Source: Marmoricola endophyticus
Lineage (GTDB): Bacteria; Actinomycetota; Actinomycetes; Propionibacteriales; Nocardioidaceae
DNA length: 64,000 nt
Assembly (NCBI RefSeq): GCF_014644415.1
Contig: NZ_BMKQ01000001.1
Coordinates: 2,435,984-2,499,983, forward strand
Direction: 5' to 3'
A program made the position numbers and the translations under genes. This document shows, piece after piece, positions 32,059 to 38,544 of the stretch; position 1 is the stretch's first letter; each line of letters opens with the position of its first letter. Under the pieces are notes generated by a model. The model saw only the letters and a program-made list of their open reading frames with translations, ran no database searches and was not told the DNA's origin.

Positions 32059-32863
32059 GGGGCCGTCCGGCTGGTCCGGTGGCGCGTTCGGGGACCGCGG
32101 GCTGTGCGTGCTCGCACCCAACGCCGACCAGATGACTCTCGACGGCACCAACACCTGGGTGCTGCGCGAGCCCGGGTCCGAGCGGTCGATCGTCATCGAC
32201 CCGGGCCCGCCCGTGCAGTCCCACCTCGACGCGGTGGCCGAGGCGGGCGGCGACGTCGAGGTCGTGCTGCTCACCCACCACCACCTCGACCACTCCGAGG
32301 CCGCGCGCGACTTCGCCGAGCGGGTCGGGTGCGGCGTCCGCGCCCTGGACCCGGCGTACCGGCTGGGCGGCGAGGGCCTCGGCGAGGGCGACGTCGTCGC
32401 CGTCGGCGGCACCGAGGTGCACGTCGTCGCGACGCCCGGTCACACGGCGGACTCGCTGTCCTTCTGGCTGCCGCAGGAGTCGGCCGTGCTCACCGGCGAC
32501 ACCGTGCTCGGACGGGGTACGACGGTCGTCGCGCACCCCGACGGGCAGCTCGGTGCGTACCTCGACTCCCTCGACCGGCTGCGCGACCTCGCCACCGAGC
32601 ACGGCATCGAGTCGATCTGGCCGGGTCACGGCCCGGTCATCGACGACGCCCTCGGCGCGCTGGACTTCTACCTCGCCCACCGCCGCGAGCGGCTGGACCA
32701 GGTCCGCGACGCGGTCGCCACGCTCGAGCGCTCCGACTCCCCGCCCGACGAGGACGCCCTGCCACGTAGCGTCGTCGAGATCGTGTACGCCGACGTCGAC
32801 CCCGTCCTCTGGGGCGCCGCCGAGCTCAGCGTCCGCGCCCAGCTGGCGTACCTGCACCGTTGA
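32051..32863 (+). CDS. Metallo-beta-lactamase-fold hydrolase (Rv3677c/LACTB2-like)
   Basis: A 270-residue MBL-fold protein with the zinc motif LLTHHHLDHSEAA (residues about 74-86), a second His in TPGHTADSLSFW, the Asp in VLTGDTVLG and GHGPVID near the end. The order and the C-terminal winged helix (YLAHRRERLDQVRDAV) fit the LACTB2-like endoribonuclease/hydrolase group. It is the last gene of the DUF4177-ridA-nudix-MBL operon. Its stop lies inside the first unit of a 22-bp repeat array. Confidence 0.9.
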   Translation: MVEGPSGWSGGAFGDRGLCVLAPNADQMTLDGTNTWVLREPGSERSIVIDPGPPVQSHLDAVAEAGGDVEVVLLTHHHLDHSEAARDFAERVGCGVRALDPAYRLGGEGLGEGDVVAVGGTEVHVVATPGHTADSLSFWLPQESAVLTGDTVLGRGTTVVAHPDGQLGAYLDSLDRLRDLATEHGIESIWPGHGPVIDDALGALDFYLAHRRERLDQVRDAVATLERSDSPPDEDALPRSVVEIVYADVDPVLWGAAELSVRAQLAYLHR

Positions 32864-32970
32864 GTGGTGCCCCCCACCGGGTCGAGTGGTGCTTACTCCC
32901 GGGTCGAGTGGTGCCCACTGCGGGGCCGGCCCGCGGAATGCACCACTCGAGCCGGTACGAGGCACCACTC
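32862..32970. repeat. 22-bp-period array: three forward and two inverted units
   Basis: GAGTGGTGC starts at 32862, 32884 and 32906, exactly 22 bp apart, each followed by a C-rich stretch and CCGGGTC-like end. The complement GCACCACTC starts at 32940 and 32962, again 22 bp apart. The whole can fold back on itself between the convergent MBL and marP genes and may terminate both. Arrays with the same unit occur at 36,860 and 37,943. Confidence 0.9.
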
Positions 32971-32982
32971 GACGGGCAGGGG

Positions 32983-34155
32983 CTACGCGCAGTCGCCGGT
33001 GCTGACCTCGTCGTCGCTGCTGATCCCCTGGGCGGCGGCCGTACGCACCTGGCCGGCGGTGAGGGCGTACCCGGTGTCGTCGTCGCTGACCGACGCGGCG
33101 AACACCACGCCCAGGACCCGGCCCGCGGTCGAGACCAGGGGGCCGCCGGAGTTGCCGGGCCGGATGACCCCACGCACCGAGAAGACCTGCCGGGTGACGG
33201 TCGAGTCGCCGTAGATGTCGGGTGAGCGCAGACGCTGCTCGGCGCGGATACGGGCGGGCTGGGCGTCGTACGGGCCGTCCTCGGGGTAGCCGAGCGCGGC
33301 GCCGACCTGGTCCCGCTTGCCCGCCTGCGAGAACCGGAGGAACGGTCCCTGCAGGCTGGGGACCTCGAGGACCGCGACGTCGGAGTCGGAGTCGTAGTAG
33401 ACGACCTCGGCGCGTCGCAGCTCCCCGTCCACGACCACGCGCGGGTCGGAGACGCCGGCGACGACGTGCGCGTTGGTCATCACCCGCTCGGGGTTGTAGA
33501 GGAAGCCGCTGCCTTCGACGCCCTGACCGCACTTGTTGTTGCCGCGGATCTTGAACACGCTCTTCTGCGCCCGCTGGATGTCGGGGTCGCGCAGCACCCG
33601 GCGGCCGGCCGGCCCGACCTCGACGATGCGCTCGCGGGCGAACGGCTCGAGGTAGCTGGGGAAGAAGCTGTCGCCCACGACGTTGTTGAACGACCGCAGC
33701 GCCCCCTGCGCCGAGGCCGGCATCACGCCGTCGACCTCGCTGAGCACCGCCGAGTTGCGTACGAGGTTGGCGACGCCGGGAATGTTGGAGCCGCTGACCG
33801 CGACACCCAGCATCCAGGTCACCACGAGCACCGCGACGACGCTCAGCGCGGCGCCGCCGACGGCGTCCACCGAGCGGGCCGGCTGCCAGGTGATCGCGTC
33901 GCGGACGTTGCCGCCGAAGTACTGCAGCGACGCCTGGCCGATCGACGCGCAGATCAGCACCACGAAGACCGCGAGCAAAGACACGCCCACCGACGGGTCC
34001 AGCCCGCCGAGAAGGTGCGGCGAGATCCAGATGCCGAGCAGCCCGCCGAGCACCAGACCGACGGTCGCGAAGGCGCCGGAGATGAACCCCTGCCAGTAGC
34101 CGGACACGGCGTACGCGAGGAGGAGGACGACCAGCGCCCAGTCGAGGAGGTTCAC
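32983..34155 (-). CDS. marP: Membrane-bound serine protease MarP
   Basis: A 390-residue periplasmic protease anchored by four N-terminal membrane helices (CvpA-like region, residues about 1-130). The trypsin-like domain has His in TNAHVV, Asp in DSDVAVLEV and Ser in RPGNSGGPLVS. Two cysteines (NKCGQG and the C-terminal TGDCA) could form a disulfide as in the mycobacterial protein. MarP in M. tuberculosis supports survival in acid and activates a peptidoglycan hydrolase. The GTG start overlaps the NUDIX stop by four bases; it is the last gene of the nth-tlpA-nudix-marP operon. Confidence 0.92.
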   Translation of the reverse strand: MNLLDWALVVLLLAYAVSGYWQGFISGAFATVGLVLGGLLGIWISPHLLGGLDPSVGVSLLAVFVVLICASIGQASLQYFGGNVRDAITWQPARSVDAVGGAALSVVAVLVVTWMLGVAVSGSNIPGVANLVRNSAVLSEVDGVMPASAQGALRSFNNVVGDSFFPSYLEPFARERIVEVGPAGRRVLRDPDIQRAQKSVFKIRGNNKCGQGVEGSGFLYNPERVMTNAHVVAGVSDPRVVVDGELRRAEVVYYDSDSDVAVLEVPSLQGPFLRFSQAGKRDQVGAALGYPEDGPYDAQPARIRAEQRLRSPDIYGDSTVTRQVFSVRGVIRPGNSGGPLVSTAGRVLGVVFAASVSDDDTGYALTAGQVRTAAAQGISSDDEVSTGDCA

Positions 34156-34859
34156 CCGCGGCCTCCCCGGGAGCGGTCCGGCGCCCGGGGCACCCGCCCC
34201 TGCAGCATGTAGTCGGGCAGCTCCTGCTCGCGCGACTCGTCCCAGGGCTGCGTCCACCCGAGGTGGTCGAAGAGTCGGGTGATGATGCCGGCCGTGAAGC
34301 CCCACAGCACGAGCCGAGTCGGGCCGACGAGGAATCCCGGGCTGCGGTAGCCGGTCGGGTGCGTGACCGTCACCCGTCGCTCGGGGTCCAGCAGGTCGGC
34401 GATCGGTACGCGGAGGACCGCTTCCACCTCGTCGGGGGACCCGATCGCGAGCGGCGTCGGGTCGCGCCACCAGGCGAGGACGGGCGTCACCGCGAAGTTG
34501 CTCGGCGGCAGCCAGAGCTGCGGCAGCGTCGCGAACACGTCGACGCCGTCCGGGTCGAGCGCGACCTCCTCGTACGCCTCCCGCAGCGCCGCCTCGGCGG
34601 GCGACTCGCCCGGCTCCAGCGAACCGCCCGGGAAGGAGATCTGGCCGGGGTGGCTGCGCATGTCGTGGTTGCGCTCGGTCAGGACGAGCTCGGGGCCGCG
34701 GGCGCCTCCCACGTCGCCGAACAGCATGAGGACCGCACCCTGCCGCGCGTCGGACCCCTCCGGCGGCACGAAGCGCGTGAGGTCCTCGGCACGGATCGTC
34801 CGTGCGCCCTCGGCGACGGGTCGCAGCCACGCCGGCAGCTGCTCGACGTCGGTGGTCAC
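34152..34859 (-). CDS. NUDIX hydrolase (CoA pyrophosphatase type)
   Basis: A 235-residue NUDIX protein with a well-formed box: GGSLEPGESPAEAALREAYEEVALD. The preceding RNHDMRSHPGQISFPGG is the UPF0035/NudL signature of CoA diphosphatases, which trim coenzyme A to phosphopantetheine and 3',5'-ADP. The GTG start overlaps the stop of the TlpA-like gene and its own stop overlaps marP, so all four genes of this operon are coupled. It is the Rv3672c counterpart by position. Confidence 0.9.
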   Translation of the reverse strand: MTTDVEQLPAWLRPVAEGARTIRAEDLTRFVPPEGSDARQGAVLMLFGDVGGARGPELVLTERNHDMRSHPGQISFPGGSLEPGESPAEAALREAYEEVALDPDGVDVFATLPQLWLPPSNFAVTPVLAWWRDPTPLAIGSPDEVEAVLRVPIADLLDPERRVTVTHPTGYRSPGFLVGPTRLVLWGFTAGIITRLFDHLGWTQPWDESREQELPDYMLQGRVPRAPDRSRGGRG

Positions 34860-35356
34860 AGATCGACCTCGAGGTGGGTACGGACGAGGTCCTCGAGCTG
34901 GGAGACACTCTTGATCTCGACGTACGCGCTGTAGGCGATGCGGCCCTTCGCGTCGATGAGGAACAGCTGCGGCAGAGCCGGCCGCGGGCCGCCGAGGTGT
35001 CGGTCGGGGTCGGTCACCAAGGGATAGGTCAGACCCACCTTCTCGGCGAGGGCGCGGGCCCGCGCCGGCTGCGGGTCGAACCAGTCGACACCGAGCACCG
35101 GGAGCTGCGGGTGGGCCCGGTGGAACGCCTCGTACTTCGGCAGCTCGTCCTTGCACGGTCCGCACCACTGGGCCCACAGGTTGATCACCATCGGCCCGCG
35201 CAGGTCGCCGGTCCGCACGGCCTGCCCCCCGGGGCCGAGGGGCTGCAGGGTCGCGCTCGGCAGGCGCGTGGACTCGGGCTTCGGCGCCGTGCTCCCGCAC
35301 GCGGCAAGGGCGGTCGCGAGCACCAGCGCGAGAAGCGCGGCGGTGGCCCGCCTCAT
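34856..35356 (-). CDS. TlpA-like thioredoxin lipoprotein
   Basis: A 166-residue extracytoplasmic thiol-disulfide protein. Residues 1-20 are a lipoprotein signal ([19 protein letters not shown], lipobox LAAC). The redox site is [15 protein letters not shown] (residues about 65-79), in a TlpA/ResA-like fold with a conserved cis-Pro in [11 protein letters not shown]. It likely reduces or oxidises cysteines of exported proteins such as MarP or cytochrome partners. The ATG overlaps the nth stop by four bases. Confidence 0.9.
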
Positions 35357-36069
35357 GCGGGACCAGACGTGCGGACGAGCGCGGCGGCGACCTCGGGGTC
35401 GGTCGGACCCTCGCCGTACGACGGGCACCAGCGCGCGACGGGGCACGCCCCGCAGGCCGGCTTCTTGGCGTGGCAGCGGCGGCGACCGTGCCAGATCAGG
35501 TGGTGGGAGAGCATCGTCCAGTCCTTGCGGGGGAACAGCGCACCGACCGCGTGCTCGACCTTGACCGGGTCGGTCTCGTCGGTCCAGCCCAGCCGGCGCG
35601 CCAGGCGGCCGAAGTGGGTGTCGACGGTGATGCCGGGGACGTCGAAGGCGTTGCCGAGGACGACGTTCGCGGTCTTGCGGCCGACGCCGGGAAGGGTCAC
35701 GAGGTCCTCCAGCCGAGGCGGGACCTGTCCGTCGTACCGCTCGACGAGGGCGGCCGAGAGCTTCAGCAGCGACTCGGTCTTCGCCCGGAAGAAGCCGAGC
35801 GGGCCGACCAGCTGCTCGAGGTGTGCCCGGTCCGCGCCCGCCATCGACTTCGCGTCGGGGTACGCCGCGAACAGCGCCGGGCTGGCCTTGTTGACGCGTA
35901 CGTCGGTGGTCTGGGCGGACAGGACCGTCACGCAGAGCAGCTGGAACGGGTCGTCGAAGTCCAGCTCCGCGTGGGCGTCGGGGTACGTTTCGGCAAGCAC
36001 CCGATCGACCTTGCGGGCCCGTCGCACCAAGGCCGTGTCGGGCCGCGGTCCGGGGGAAGCAGCAGGCAC
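35353..36069 (-). CDS. nth: Endonuclease III
   Basis: A base-excision repair DNA glycosylase/AP lyase for oxidised pyrimidines, 238 residues. It has the helix-hairpin-helix [20 protein letters not shown] with the catalytic Lys, the catalytic Asp in [16 protein letters not shown], and a C-terminal 4Fe-4S loop C-x6-C-x2-C-x5-C ([17 protein letters not shown]). The GTG start has TAGGCT seven bases upstream. It is divergent from crp. Confidence 0.95.
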
Positions 36070-36076
36070 GGAGGAG

Positions 36077-36082
36077 AGCCTA
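36077..36082 (-). promoter_or_regulatory. Leaderless -10 box of nth
   Basis: TAGGCT on the minus strand, seven bases before the GTG at 36069. Confidence 0.55.
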
Positions 36083-36161
36083 CGTGGCGGGTCGCGTGGC
36101 GCCGATCGCGCTGCTGGGACAGAATGTGACGCGTAGCACCGACCGAACGAGGAGATTAACG

Positions 36162-36839
36162 GTGGAGAACGACGTCCTGCGCCAGGGCACTCTGTTCAGC
36201 TCGCTGGACGACGAGGCTGCCGACGCCCTGCGTGCCTCGATGGGAGAGGCCACGCTGCGTCGCGGCGACACGCTCTTCCACGAAGGCGACAGCGGCGACA
36301 AGCTCTACATCGTCGTCGAGGGCAAGGTGAAGCTCGGTCGTACCTCCTCCGACGGCCGCGAGAACCTCCTCGCGATCCTCGGGCCGGGCCAGATGTTCGG
36401 CGAGCTGTCGCTCTTCGACCCCGGTCCGCGCTCGGCCACGGTCTCGGCCGTCACCGACACCTCGTTCCTCTCGTTGGCCCACGAGGACCTGCTGAAGTGG
36501 CTCGAGGGCCGTCCGGACGTCAGCCGAGGCCTGCTGCTCCAGCTCGCCAGCAGACTGCGCCGCGCCAACGACGTCGCCGCCGACCTCGTCTTCTCCGACG
36601 TCCCCGGCCGGGTCGCCAAGGCCCTGCTGGACCTCGCCGACCGCTTCGGGCGTACCGCCGACGACGGCGTGCACGTCCACCACGACCTCACCCAGGAGGA
36701 GCTCGCCCAGCTCGTCGGCGCCTCCCGCGAGACGGTGAACAAGGCGCTGGCCGACTTCGCCTCGCGCGGCTGGCTCCGCCTGGAGCCGCGTTCCGTGGTG
36801 ATCATGGACATCGAGCGGATGCGCCGCCGCTCGCGCTGA
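36162..36839 (+). CDS. crp: CRP/FNR-family cAMP-responsive regulator (Crp/GlxR)
   Basis: A global regulator of 225 residues, the length of mycobacterial CRP and GlxR. The cyclic-nucleotide domain has the phosphate-binding cassette [18 protein letters not shown] (residues about 72-89). The C-terminal helix-turn-helix is [24 protein letters not shown] (residues about 173-196). I choose the GTG at 36162 because AGGAGA lies six bases upstream; an in-frame start 26 codons earlier has no ribosome site and would run into the promoter. A GTGA-N6-TCAC site in front of hppA is a candidate target. Confidence 0.95.
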
Positions 36840-36859
36840 GCCGTTGCACCTGCCACGTT

Positions 36860-36912
36860 GAGTGGTGCCCCCTACCGGGTCGAGCTGCTGGTTCTGCGGG
36901 CTCGAGTGGTGG
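36860..36912. repeat. 22-bp-period array, three forward units, 3' of the DUF559 gene
   Basis: Units start at 36860 (GAGTGGTGC), 36882 (GAGCTGCTG, diverged) and 36904 (GAGTGGTGG), exactly 22 bp apart. They lie between the crp stop and the end of the minus-strand DUF559 remnant, facing the inverted array at 37,943. Confidence 0.8.
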
Positions 36913-36915
36913 GTT

Positions 36916-37827
36916 CTACCGGTACGTCCGGCTGCGCAGGCCCTGTCGGACCTCGTCGGTCCACAGCGCGACCGATCGCTGATCGAGCCGGTCGCCGGTG
37001 ACGACGATGACGATCCATCCGTGCTCGGTGAGCCACGCGCGCCGCTCCGCGTCGTCGGCACGGTCCTCCGGCGCGGTGTGGAACTCCTGGCCGTCTTACT
37101 CGACGGCGACCTTGTGCAGCGGGAACGCCAGGTCCAGCCGGTACGTCGGCACGCCGTCCACATCGACCCACCACTGCAGCTCCGGCACCGGCAGCCCGGC
37201 CTCGAGCAGCTCGTAGCGGACCCAGGACTCGCCGAAGGACTCCGAGCGAGCGTCGGCCATCGACAGCAACCGCCGCAGCTGCACGACCCCGCGGCGTCGC
37301 CGGAACCGGGCCGACTCCCGCGTCAGCTGCTCGACGTCGAGGCCGTGCAGCCGCAGGATCGCGTCGATCACCGCGAGGGCCGAGCGAGCGCGCATCGAGC
37401 AGCCCAGGTCCAGGGCCGTCCGCATCGCGGTCGTGACCCGCAGGCCGTGCAGCACCACCACGTCTCGTACGCGGAGGTCGCGGGTGCACCCGGCGTGGTC
37501 GGCGCGCCGAGTGGGTGTCACGAAGCGCGGCACCGAGGTCTCGATCTCGGGCAGGACCTCCTTCTCGTGGTGGTCGAGCGCGTCGACGCCGTGCAGCCAG
37601 GCCGCCGTACGGTCCCGCACGACCGAGCCCGACCGGATCACCCGGCTCACCGCCCGGCAGCGCGTCTCGATGGTGTCGGGCTGGTCGCAGCGGACGTAGA
37701 CGCCGCGCACCACCCGCCGGACGAGCCGTGCGTCGAGCGCGCACTCGAGGGCCCACGGGGTCACCCCGATCTGCTCGAGGTCGGCTCGGGTGAACGGAGT
37801 GGTCGGGAGCTCGATGACGCTCGTCAT
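36916..37827 (-). pseudogene. AbiEi-like/DUF559 nuclease-fold protein with internal stop
   Basis: The N-terminus has a winged helix like AbiEi antitoxins (FTRADLEQIGVTPWALECAL, RRVVRGVYV). The C-terminal half is a DUF559 (Vsr-like) nuclease domain: ESFGESWVRYELLEAGLPVPELQW, then YRLDLAFPLHKVAVE. Directly after this Glu, TAA (37096-37098) stops the frame. Past it the frame stays open and keeps family sequence (DGQEFHTAPEDR, then WLTEHGWIVIVV) to a TAG at 36916-36918, 302 residues in all. The family expects Tyr (TAC) or another hydrophobic residue in VEYDG, so one base change would explain the stop. The truncated form lacks most of the nuclease core. Confidence 0.82.
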
Positions 37828-37942
37828 GGCAGCACGGTGCGACACGAGCGGCACACGCCGCTGGTCCGCGTACGGGCCTGTGGACGACTACGCCGGCCGA
37901 TCGGCCTGTGGACGTTCGGCGTACCCGGCTAAACGGCAGAAC

Positions 37943-37995
37943 GCACCACTCGACCCAGGAGGGGGCACCACTCGACCCGGTGGAATGCACCACTC
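37943..37995. repeat. 22-bp-period array, three inverted units, 5' of the DUF559 gene
   Basis: GCACCACTC starts at 37943, 37965 and 37987, exactly 22 bp apart, each followed by CGAC. This is the complement of the units at 36,860, so the DUF559 gene lies between opposed arrays about 1.1 kb apart. The last unit ends 12 bases before the stop of the next minus-strand gene. Confidence 0.9.
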
Positions 37996-38006
37996 GACGG
38001 TGTGGG

Positions 38007-38438
38007 TCAGCCCTTGCGGTCCTTGAGCACGGCCTGGGTCTTCTTCGCCTCGGCGATGGCCCGCTTGGGCGGGCCGGCCTTGTTGATGCTGCGGTAGCCG
38101 AGGAACCCGAGCAGTCCGGCGACCAGGAGGTAGAACGCGAACACGATCAGGTAGCACCAGGCGAGGTTCAGCCCGGTCAGGTGGATCAGGTACGCGATCG
38201 CGACCGAGAGCATGATGATCGCCAGCACGCCGATGAACGCAGCGGCCGCGAAGAGCACGACGCCCATCACGCCGACGCGCACCGAGAACTTCAGCTCGGA
38301 CTTGGCGAGCTCGATCTCCTTGCGGACCAGCAGCGAGACGTTCCGGCTGACGTCGACGGCGAGCTTGCCGATGGTGGGGTCGTCGGCCGGGTCGTTCACG
38401 GACGGTGTGGCAGGGGCCGACTTGTCGAGCTGCGCCAT
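38007..38438 (-). CDS. Small membrane protein, actinobacterial holin-X family
   Basis: A 143-residue protein with two hydrophobic spans (VGVMGVVLFAAAAFIGVLAIIMLSVAIAYLI, and LAWCYLIVFAFYLLVAGLLGFLGY, residues about 56-115), preceded by an amphipathic helix (LAVDVSRNVSLLVRKEIELAKSELK). This is the layout of the phage holin superfamily III/Holin-X proteins that are chromosomal in many actinobacteria; lysis is not implied. A GAGAGGAAC site precedes the ATG. Same place as Rv3669, near acs. Role unknown, possibly membrane organisation. Confidence 0.8.
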   Translation of the reverse strand: MAQLDKSAPATPSVNDPADDPTIGKLAVDVSRNVSLLVRKEIELAKSELKFSVRVGVMGVVLFAAAAFIGVLAIIMLSVAIAYLIHLTGLNLAWCYLIVFAFYLLVAGLLGFLGYRSINKAGPPKRAIAEAKKTQAVLKDRKG

Positions 38439-38544
38439 GGGTTCCTCTCGCGGTGGTACGCCTGAGCCTAGGCGAAACGGGCGGGGACGTGCACGACCGC
38501 ACCCCTGCCCGACGTGCGACGGGCCGGGGTGCGGTCGCGGCGGA

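Follow-up and report, generated by a model that had tools for sequence, protein, structure and literature searches.

Facing helix-phased arrays around an AbiEi-like nuclease gene, with matching repeats scattered through the genome, look like a novel type of system for spreading repeats in soil bacteria

We analysed a window of 64,000 nucleotides from Marmoricola endophyticus (contig NZ_BMKQ01000001.1, positions 2,435,984-2,499,983; genome G000, 3.66 Mb in 22 contigs) in which a nuclease gene lies between two short repeat arrays that face each other. Taken with scattered repeats that match the resident cassette, this arrangement suggests that soil bacteria have a repeat-spreading system of a new type. 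The array-gene-array cassette occupies 36857-38000. Its left arm (36857-36915, plus strand) holds three 22-bp units in register, oriented toward the gene, and its right arm (37936-38000, minus strand) holds three inverted units. The original prediction described a triplet on each side. On the right this holds throughout, with three exact cores whose starts are 22 bp apart (37943-37951, 37965-37973 and 37987-37995). On the left the 22-bp register stands but the description was overstated: the core at 36860 is exact, that at 36904 has one mismatch (GAGTGGTGG) and that at 36882 is strongly decayed. The gene between them, on the minus strand at 36916-37854, begins at a GTG at 37854 or an ATG at ~37827, and its final stop codon (36916-36918) is 3 bp away from the last left-arm core. 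An in-frame TAA (37096-37098, minus strand) falls within the nuclease motif, reflecting either genuine decay or an assembly error. The core GAGTGGTGC occurs nine times in the window where 1.03 copies are expected, a count reached by 0 of 100 shuffles.

Intact relatives of the gene bear out the predicted domain architecture. N-terminal fold and profile matches identify an AbiEi-antitoxin fold, recognisable in both structure and sequence, fused to a Vsr/I-Bth0305I-like (DUF559) domain with the catalytic fold of the Vsr/EDxHD group. All 23 rows of an alignment have D230 and E241 of the nuclease motif, and at least 90% of them have D243 and H248. Regular expressions for the motif flagged 29 of 86 rows; being too strict, they served for no count, but they led to a substitution considered below. 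No AbiEii toxin gene adjoins the nuclease in the window, where its neighbours are crp and holin-X; crp was the neighbour on one side in all seven relatives compared. We rejected the idea of phage or plasmid cargo, since the protein had no phage match and its eight plasmid records were distant, all below 60% identity.

The exact 22-bp pattern of the window was absent from 38 other genomes, so that only 1 of 39, its own, carries it. The protein has homologues in 33 of these 39 genomes (its own included), many of them between facing arrays with another core. We collected 80 homologue loci, mainly from Nocardioides and Marmoricola, by searching named genomes. Periodic units were present in both arms at 62 loci, in one arm at 11 and in neither at 7. 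The corresponding counts for 40 control placements were 0, 23 and 17, and units in a single arm are therefore hardly informative. Arrays thus adjoin these DUF559 genes on both flanks well above chance, and the proposed 'nuclease with its own target array' is upheld as an association. A scan of lags 15-59 with no preset periods reached a score of at least 6 at 63 of 80 loci and at 47 of 1,097 control placements. Best lags were 22 (27 loci), 32 (15), 31 (9), 21 (6), 44 (4), 43 (1) and 27 (1), in keeping with the prediction that units lie on the same face of the DNA. Inverted 9-mers numbered at least 20 at 52 of 80 loci, compared with 5 of 1,097 control placements. Array cores vary between species; most periods are 21-22 bp (two helical turns) or 31-33 bp (three). 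The unit finder counted 187 gaps of 21-22 bp and 98 of 31-33 bp, numbers biased by its preference for spacings of 21-22, 31-32 and their doubles; the lag scan is free of this bias.

At L026, L028 and L140, more distant homologues lie between facing repeats with a period of 19-20, which suggests that the design extends beyond the genus. The paralogues L023 and L024 have, by eye, no nuclease motif, and they show no clear arrays (L023 is borderline); they may help to show if the nuclease is required.

The period follows the protein. Its class changes 3 times on the protein tree (70 labelled rows), against at least 17 in 200 shuffles. A two-turn period is found at 13 of 15 crp-adjacent loci and a three-turn period at 17 of 20 rbpA-adjacent loci. 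The gene itself occupies a few conserved sites, with 7 site changes on the tree, and this counts against the earlier suggestion that the ~1.1-kb cassette spreads whole: it is chiefly arrays lacking the gene that spread. Distances across the dyad fall into basic classes ~10 bp apart; these classes are the independent part of that result, as long distances may conceal undetected units. The facing cores are complementary. The variable halves of the units, however, are no more alike across the dyad than between elements (0.567 vs 0.561 in G000, 0.522 vs 0.507 in G040 and 0.513 vs 0.535 in G039), and innermost pairs across the dyad give 0.519, 0.469 and 0.556 in G000, G040 and G039, respectively. 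We found no covariation of these halves in the three genomes and no Rfam match in the 6 kb searched (32500-38500), and on these grounds rejected an RNA hairpin or terminator.

Similar arrays are dispersed through the window's genome, close to the ends of genes. In G000, whose 22-bp unit consists of YGAGTGGTGC and a semi-conserved half, 69 tandem unit pairs with at most 2 mismatches were found, compared with 0 in the control. There are 34 clusters of at least two units across 32 stretches, and 27 of the 34 have units in both orientations. Only two of the clusters are the arms of the window cassette; we therefore set aside the simple 'island bounded by extragenic repeats'. Within G000, arrays do lie independently of DUF559 genes (34 clusters, four DUF559 matches), which the original prediction had named as refuting, but across species they do not. 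Some arrays start on a stop codon. A T precedes GA in 31 of 56 outermost units but in 4 of 78 inner ones (Fisher 4e-11), and 8 of 56 arms have a unit that provides the stop codon of a clear open frame. This contrast is weaker in G039/G040 (29 of 41 vs 21 of 59).

Gene contexts, called with a rough gene finder based on third-position GC content (GC3), could be assigned to 26 of the 34 clusters, both cassette arms included; 8 were dropped because a called gene overlapped them. Eleven lie between two minus-strand genes, ten between convergent genes, four between two plus-strand genes and one between divergent genes. Common convergent and rare divergent placement would suit arrays that are bidirectional terminators or passive extragenic repeats, one of which contains the nuclease gene by chance or by hitch-hiking, and so would the complementary facing cores. 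We give this explanation next to no credence: units flank 62 of 80 homologues on both sides, the period changes in step with the protein tree, the variable halves are no more alike across the dyad than between elements, and the region lacks an Rfam match. The same placement bears on an AbiEi-like regulator with operators across the genome, whose arrays would regulate or insulate neighbouring 3' ends and evolve through ordinary recombination and selection to match the regulator, with the nuclease domain in a minor or different role. AbiEi antitoxins are described as binding 23-bp inverted repeats; the 22-bp units, the dyad classes ~10 bp apart and a period that tracks the protein all fit such a regulator. 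We nonetheless regard it as unlikely: a promoter position occurs in the single divergent cluster among the 26 classified by the rough finder, array presence varies among close species and the nuclease-motif residues are invariant or kept in at least 90% of the aligned rows.

Three nuclease homologues reside in G000, each with a different core. The second, at 169463 (L061, contig C1:166500-173300), has an intact open reading frame and, by eye, repeats of another core (GCGAGGCGTCGCG, period ~42) on both sides. This core is also scattered in the genome, with 131 matches at up to one mismatch compared with 52 in the control. The third, at 203563 (L062, C1:200500-207300), has by eye a degenerate 32-bp array of a different core on both flanks; that core gave 49 matches vs 3 in the control, few of them tandem. 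An automatic test detected periodic signal at lags 42 and 36 for these two homologues, respectively (0 of 200 shuffles each), without an excess of inverted 9-mers.

Five genomes were tested, and in each of them the scattered arrays have the same core as the resident cassette. For the G019 core we counted 144 copies in G019 itself (control 4), compared with 13 and 12 in two other genomes (controls 9 and 5). The G039 and G040 cores gave 38 and 46 matches (controls 1 and 4), and the G003 core 188 in G003 (control 38), where 24 exact matches are listed, many spaced 32 bp. Phased multi-unit arrays so widely dispersed, around a gene with no phage hit and only eight distant plasmid hits, might instead be chromosome-organising sites at which a domesticated architectural protein is anchored, with selection maintaining their likeness. 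Array positions vary between close species, however, and G000 alone has three homologues with different cores, so we attach very little probability to this proposal.

Close species show both filled and near-empty array sites. We fetched 25 array loci from two genomes and used the 12 without an evident partner for a flank search in six close genomes. Seven of the 12 aligned; the other five (L152, L154, L158, L164 and L172) mostly matched as two separated pieces and were excluded. At six clear sites the filled form and its counterparts elsewhere measured 179 vs 15-42 bases, 149 vs none, 127 vs 7-29, 85 vs 1-21, 56 vs 10-47 and 56 vs 10-16. The seventh (L160) is ambiguous, with 42 bases vs 20 and 28, one of these with a remnant palindrome. 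Near-empty sites of the kind sought were thus found for arrays, but none for the crp-holin-X interval. A rival explanation is an ordinary transposon, in which the arrays would be compound terminal repeats, the nuclease a transposase and the gene-free elements miniature derivatives. Yet spacers are replaced at the seven aligned sites, six of them clear, and no clean target-site duplication is visible there; moreover, orthologous elements at one and the same position have different cores, something that movement by itself would leave unexplained. A transposon of this kind seems decidedly improbable to us.

A natural pair of sister genomes carries different cassettes. The backbones of G039 and G040 are 92-93% identical, and the flanks of the nuclease locus 93.3% and 92.3%, while the nuclease genes are only 68.5% and the upstream arrays 63.3% identical. 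The G040 gene is closest to L124 and L141 (84.4 and 78.5%), and the protein tree groups the G039 gene with L128 and L129 at a Shimodaira-Hasegawa-like approximate likelihood ratio (SH-aLRT) support of 99. With cassette units excluded, most scattered units match the resident cassette: 35 of 37 in G039 are of CGCG type and 38 of 50 in G040 of GCCCG type. Six of the fetched array positions are common to both genomes, with flanks 86.7-92.0% identical. At these places CGCG is present in 24 of 26 G039 units. In G040, three places have GCCCG, L162 has CGCG in 4 of 4 units, L157 has neither type and L166 could not be counted (rows L160, L165 and L166 yielded no countable units). The relic at L162 suggests that G040 is the genome that switched. 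A regulator with arrays selected to match it would also account for agreement between arrays and resident cassette.

The window itself contains an element of the same family without a gene (32857-32975), which the original prediction had not noted. Its forward cores start at 32862, 32884 and 32906 and its inverted cores at 32940 and 32962, so that five of the nine window copies of the core fall within 32862-32970; its outermost unit provides the TGA stop of an upstream open frame. This element also marks one end of an inversion. Relative to seven relatives, a segment with approximate limits 32983-37854, holding marP, nudix, trx, nth, crp and the nuclease gene, is inverted in the window. In the relatives, crp and the nuclease gene lie together, apart from holin-X, and holin-X faces marP, directly in six of the seven and with ~1 kb between them in L070. 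The backbone neighbours crp and holin-X were thus correctly named, but their adjacency is a product of the inversion. Both breakpoints lie at arrays, and recombination between arrays is its likely cause.

On balance we lean towards a nuclease-plus-array system, in which the protein would bind its own arrays and the nuclease would start the recombination that spreads and homogenises them. The N-terminal AbiEi-fold region would bind each unit, with a protein at every two helical turns (21-22 bp) or every three (31-33 bp), placing bound proteins on the same DNA face and in mirror image across the dyad. The arrays would then be an amplified form of the inverted-repeat operators bound by AbiEi antitoxins. 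The C-terminal Vsr/homing-endonuclease-like domain may cut or nick DNA at 3' gene ends, on or close to sites that are bound or that match in part, in some cases at the TGA stop codon itself. Repair templated by another array would copy units into the cut site, both spreading arrays between genes and converting old arrays to the core of the resident protein. The array-gene-array cassette would stay at a few chromosomal sites and sometimes be swapped as a block. Beyond what is reported above (architecture, phasing, dispersal, filled and near-empty sites, and the match of scattered units to the resident cassette in the pair with different cassettes), we infer binding, cutting, repair copying, the direction of the swap and who gains. 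A bolder version, which we consider slightly less likely than not, is an intragenomic drive not described before: a chromosomal AbiEi-homing-nuclease fusion that rewrites scattered helix-phased arrays to its own specificity, so that a cassette swap converts the array family in trans.

Several observations weigh against this interpretation. Binding and cleavage by the protein are predictions, and the window copy of the gene is broken, which may leave the 22-bp family of G000 orphaned. In exactly seven close species (L124, L128, L129, L133, L134, L137 and L141) Y or F replaces the otherwise nearly invariant D of the E-Y-D-G motif, which makes their nuclease activity uncertain and slightly lowered our confidence; arrays are well kept there, and a weakened nuclease would fit an AbiEi-like regulator. 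Periodic units are missing from one or both arms at 18 of 80 loci, and homologues from another family in the order (L022, L025, L027, L029 and L030) have no clear arrays, L022 and L029 being borderline. The G003 core exceeds its control in G009, G010 and G019 as well (100, 97 and 80 vs 45, 46 and 18), although in G009 the listing contains no exact match and nearly all matches are isolated, so part of this excess is not arrays. The pair with different cassettes is a single case, and the direction of its switch depends on one relic locus, L162. In G040, 12 of the 50 scattered units depart from the resident type. Identity of the G039 gene to its presumed kin L128 and L129 (72.7 and 71.0%) is just a little higher than to G040 (68.5%), and the C-terminal part of the G039 gene is 71.0, 68.6 and 70.9% identical to L128, L129 and G040, respectively.

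Among the matches listed in our literature search, none described DUF559 or AbiEi-nuclease genes with arrays. The Caulobacter VsrA protein shares the DUF559 nuclease domain; the excerpted text of PMC12907096 ties it to cytosine methylation and does not mention arrays. EDxHD/Vsr-like homing endonucleases such as I-Bth0305I share the fold of the catalytic domain, but here it is mainly a non-coding array that spreads, and we noticed no intron or intein around the gene, though no search for one was made. AbiE type IV toxin-antitoxin systems (AbiEi, Rv2827c) resemble the present one in N-terminal fold and profile matches, in 22-23-bp inverted sites and in spacing classes ~10 bp apart. They differ in that the present gene is fused to a nuclease domain, has no adjoining AbiEii in the window, and has units amplified into arrays that flank the gene and extend across the genome.

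The closest parallel in organisation is REP/REPIN-RAYT (TnpA-REP). According to the excerpted text of PMC2817692 and PMC8049555, the RAYT gene is flanked by its own inverted repeat, lies at conserved chromosomal sites and has lineage-specific repeats scattered between genes of the same genome. The present gene is likewise flanked by an inverted repeat (both arms at 62 of 80 loci, 0 of 40 controls), sits at conserved sites and has lineage-specific repeats scattered between genes. Its AbiEi-fold and Vsr/I-Bth0305I-like nuclease is, however, unrelated to RAYT, and its repeats are helix-phased tandem units. Their facing cores are complementary, but the variable halves show neither covariation nor surplus likeness across the dyad, in a comparison that did not look for tags such as GTAG. 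The Y1 (HUH) transposase PF01797 was found in 0 of 5 genomes searched and in 5 of 14 control genomes, so we rejected a RAYT as the mover. The present system is thus not a REPIN-RAYT member, but by analogy it would work like one. If our interpretation is true, it represents a second, independently evolved answer to the role that REPIN-RAYT fills, the long-term maintenance of a short-repeat family inside bacterial genomes, with an unrelated nuclease. The periods are fixed at two or three turns and follow the protein tree, which suggests a modular recognition of DNA with frequent changes of specificity, and the natural pair with different cassettes makes the co-evolution of scattered repeats directly testable.
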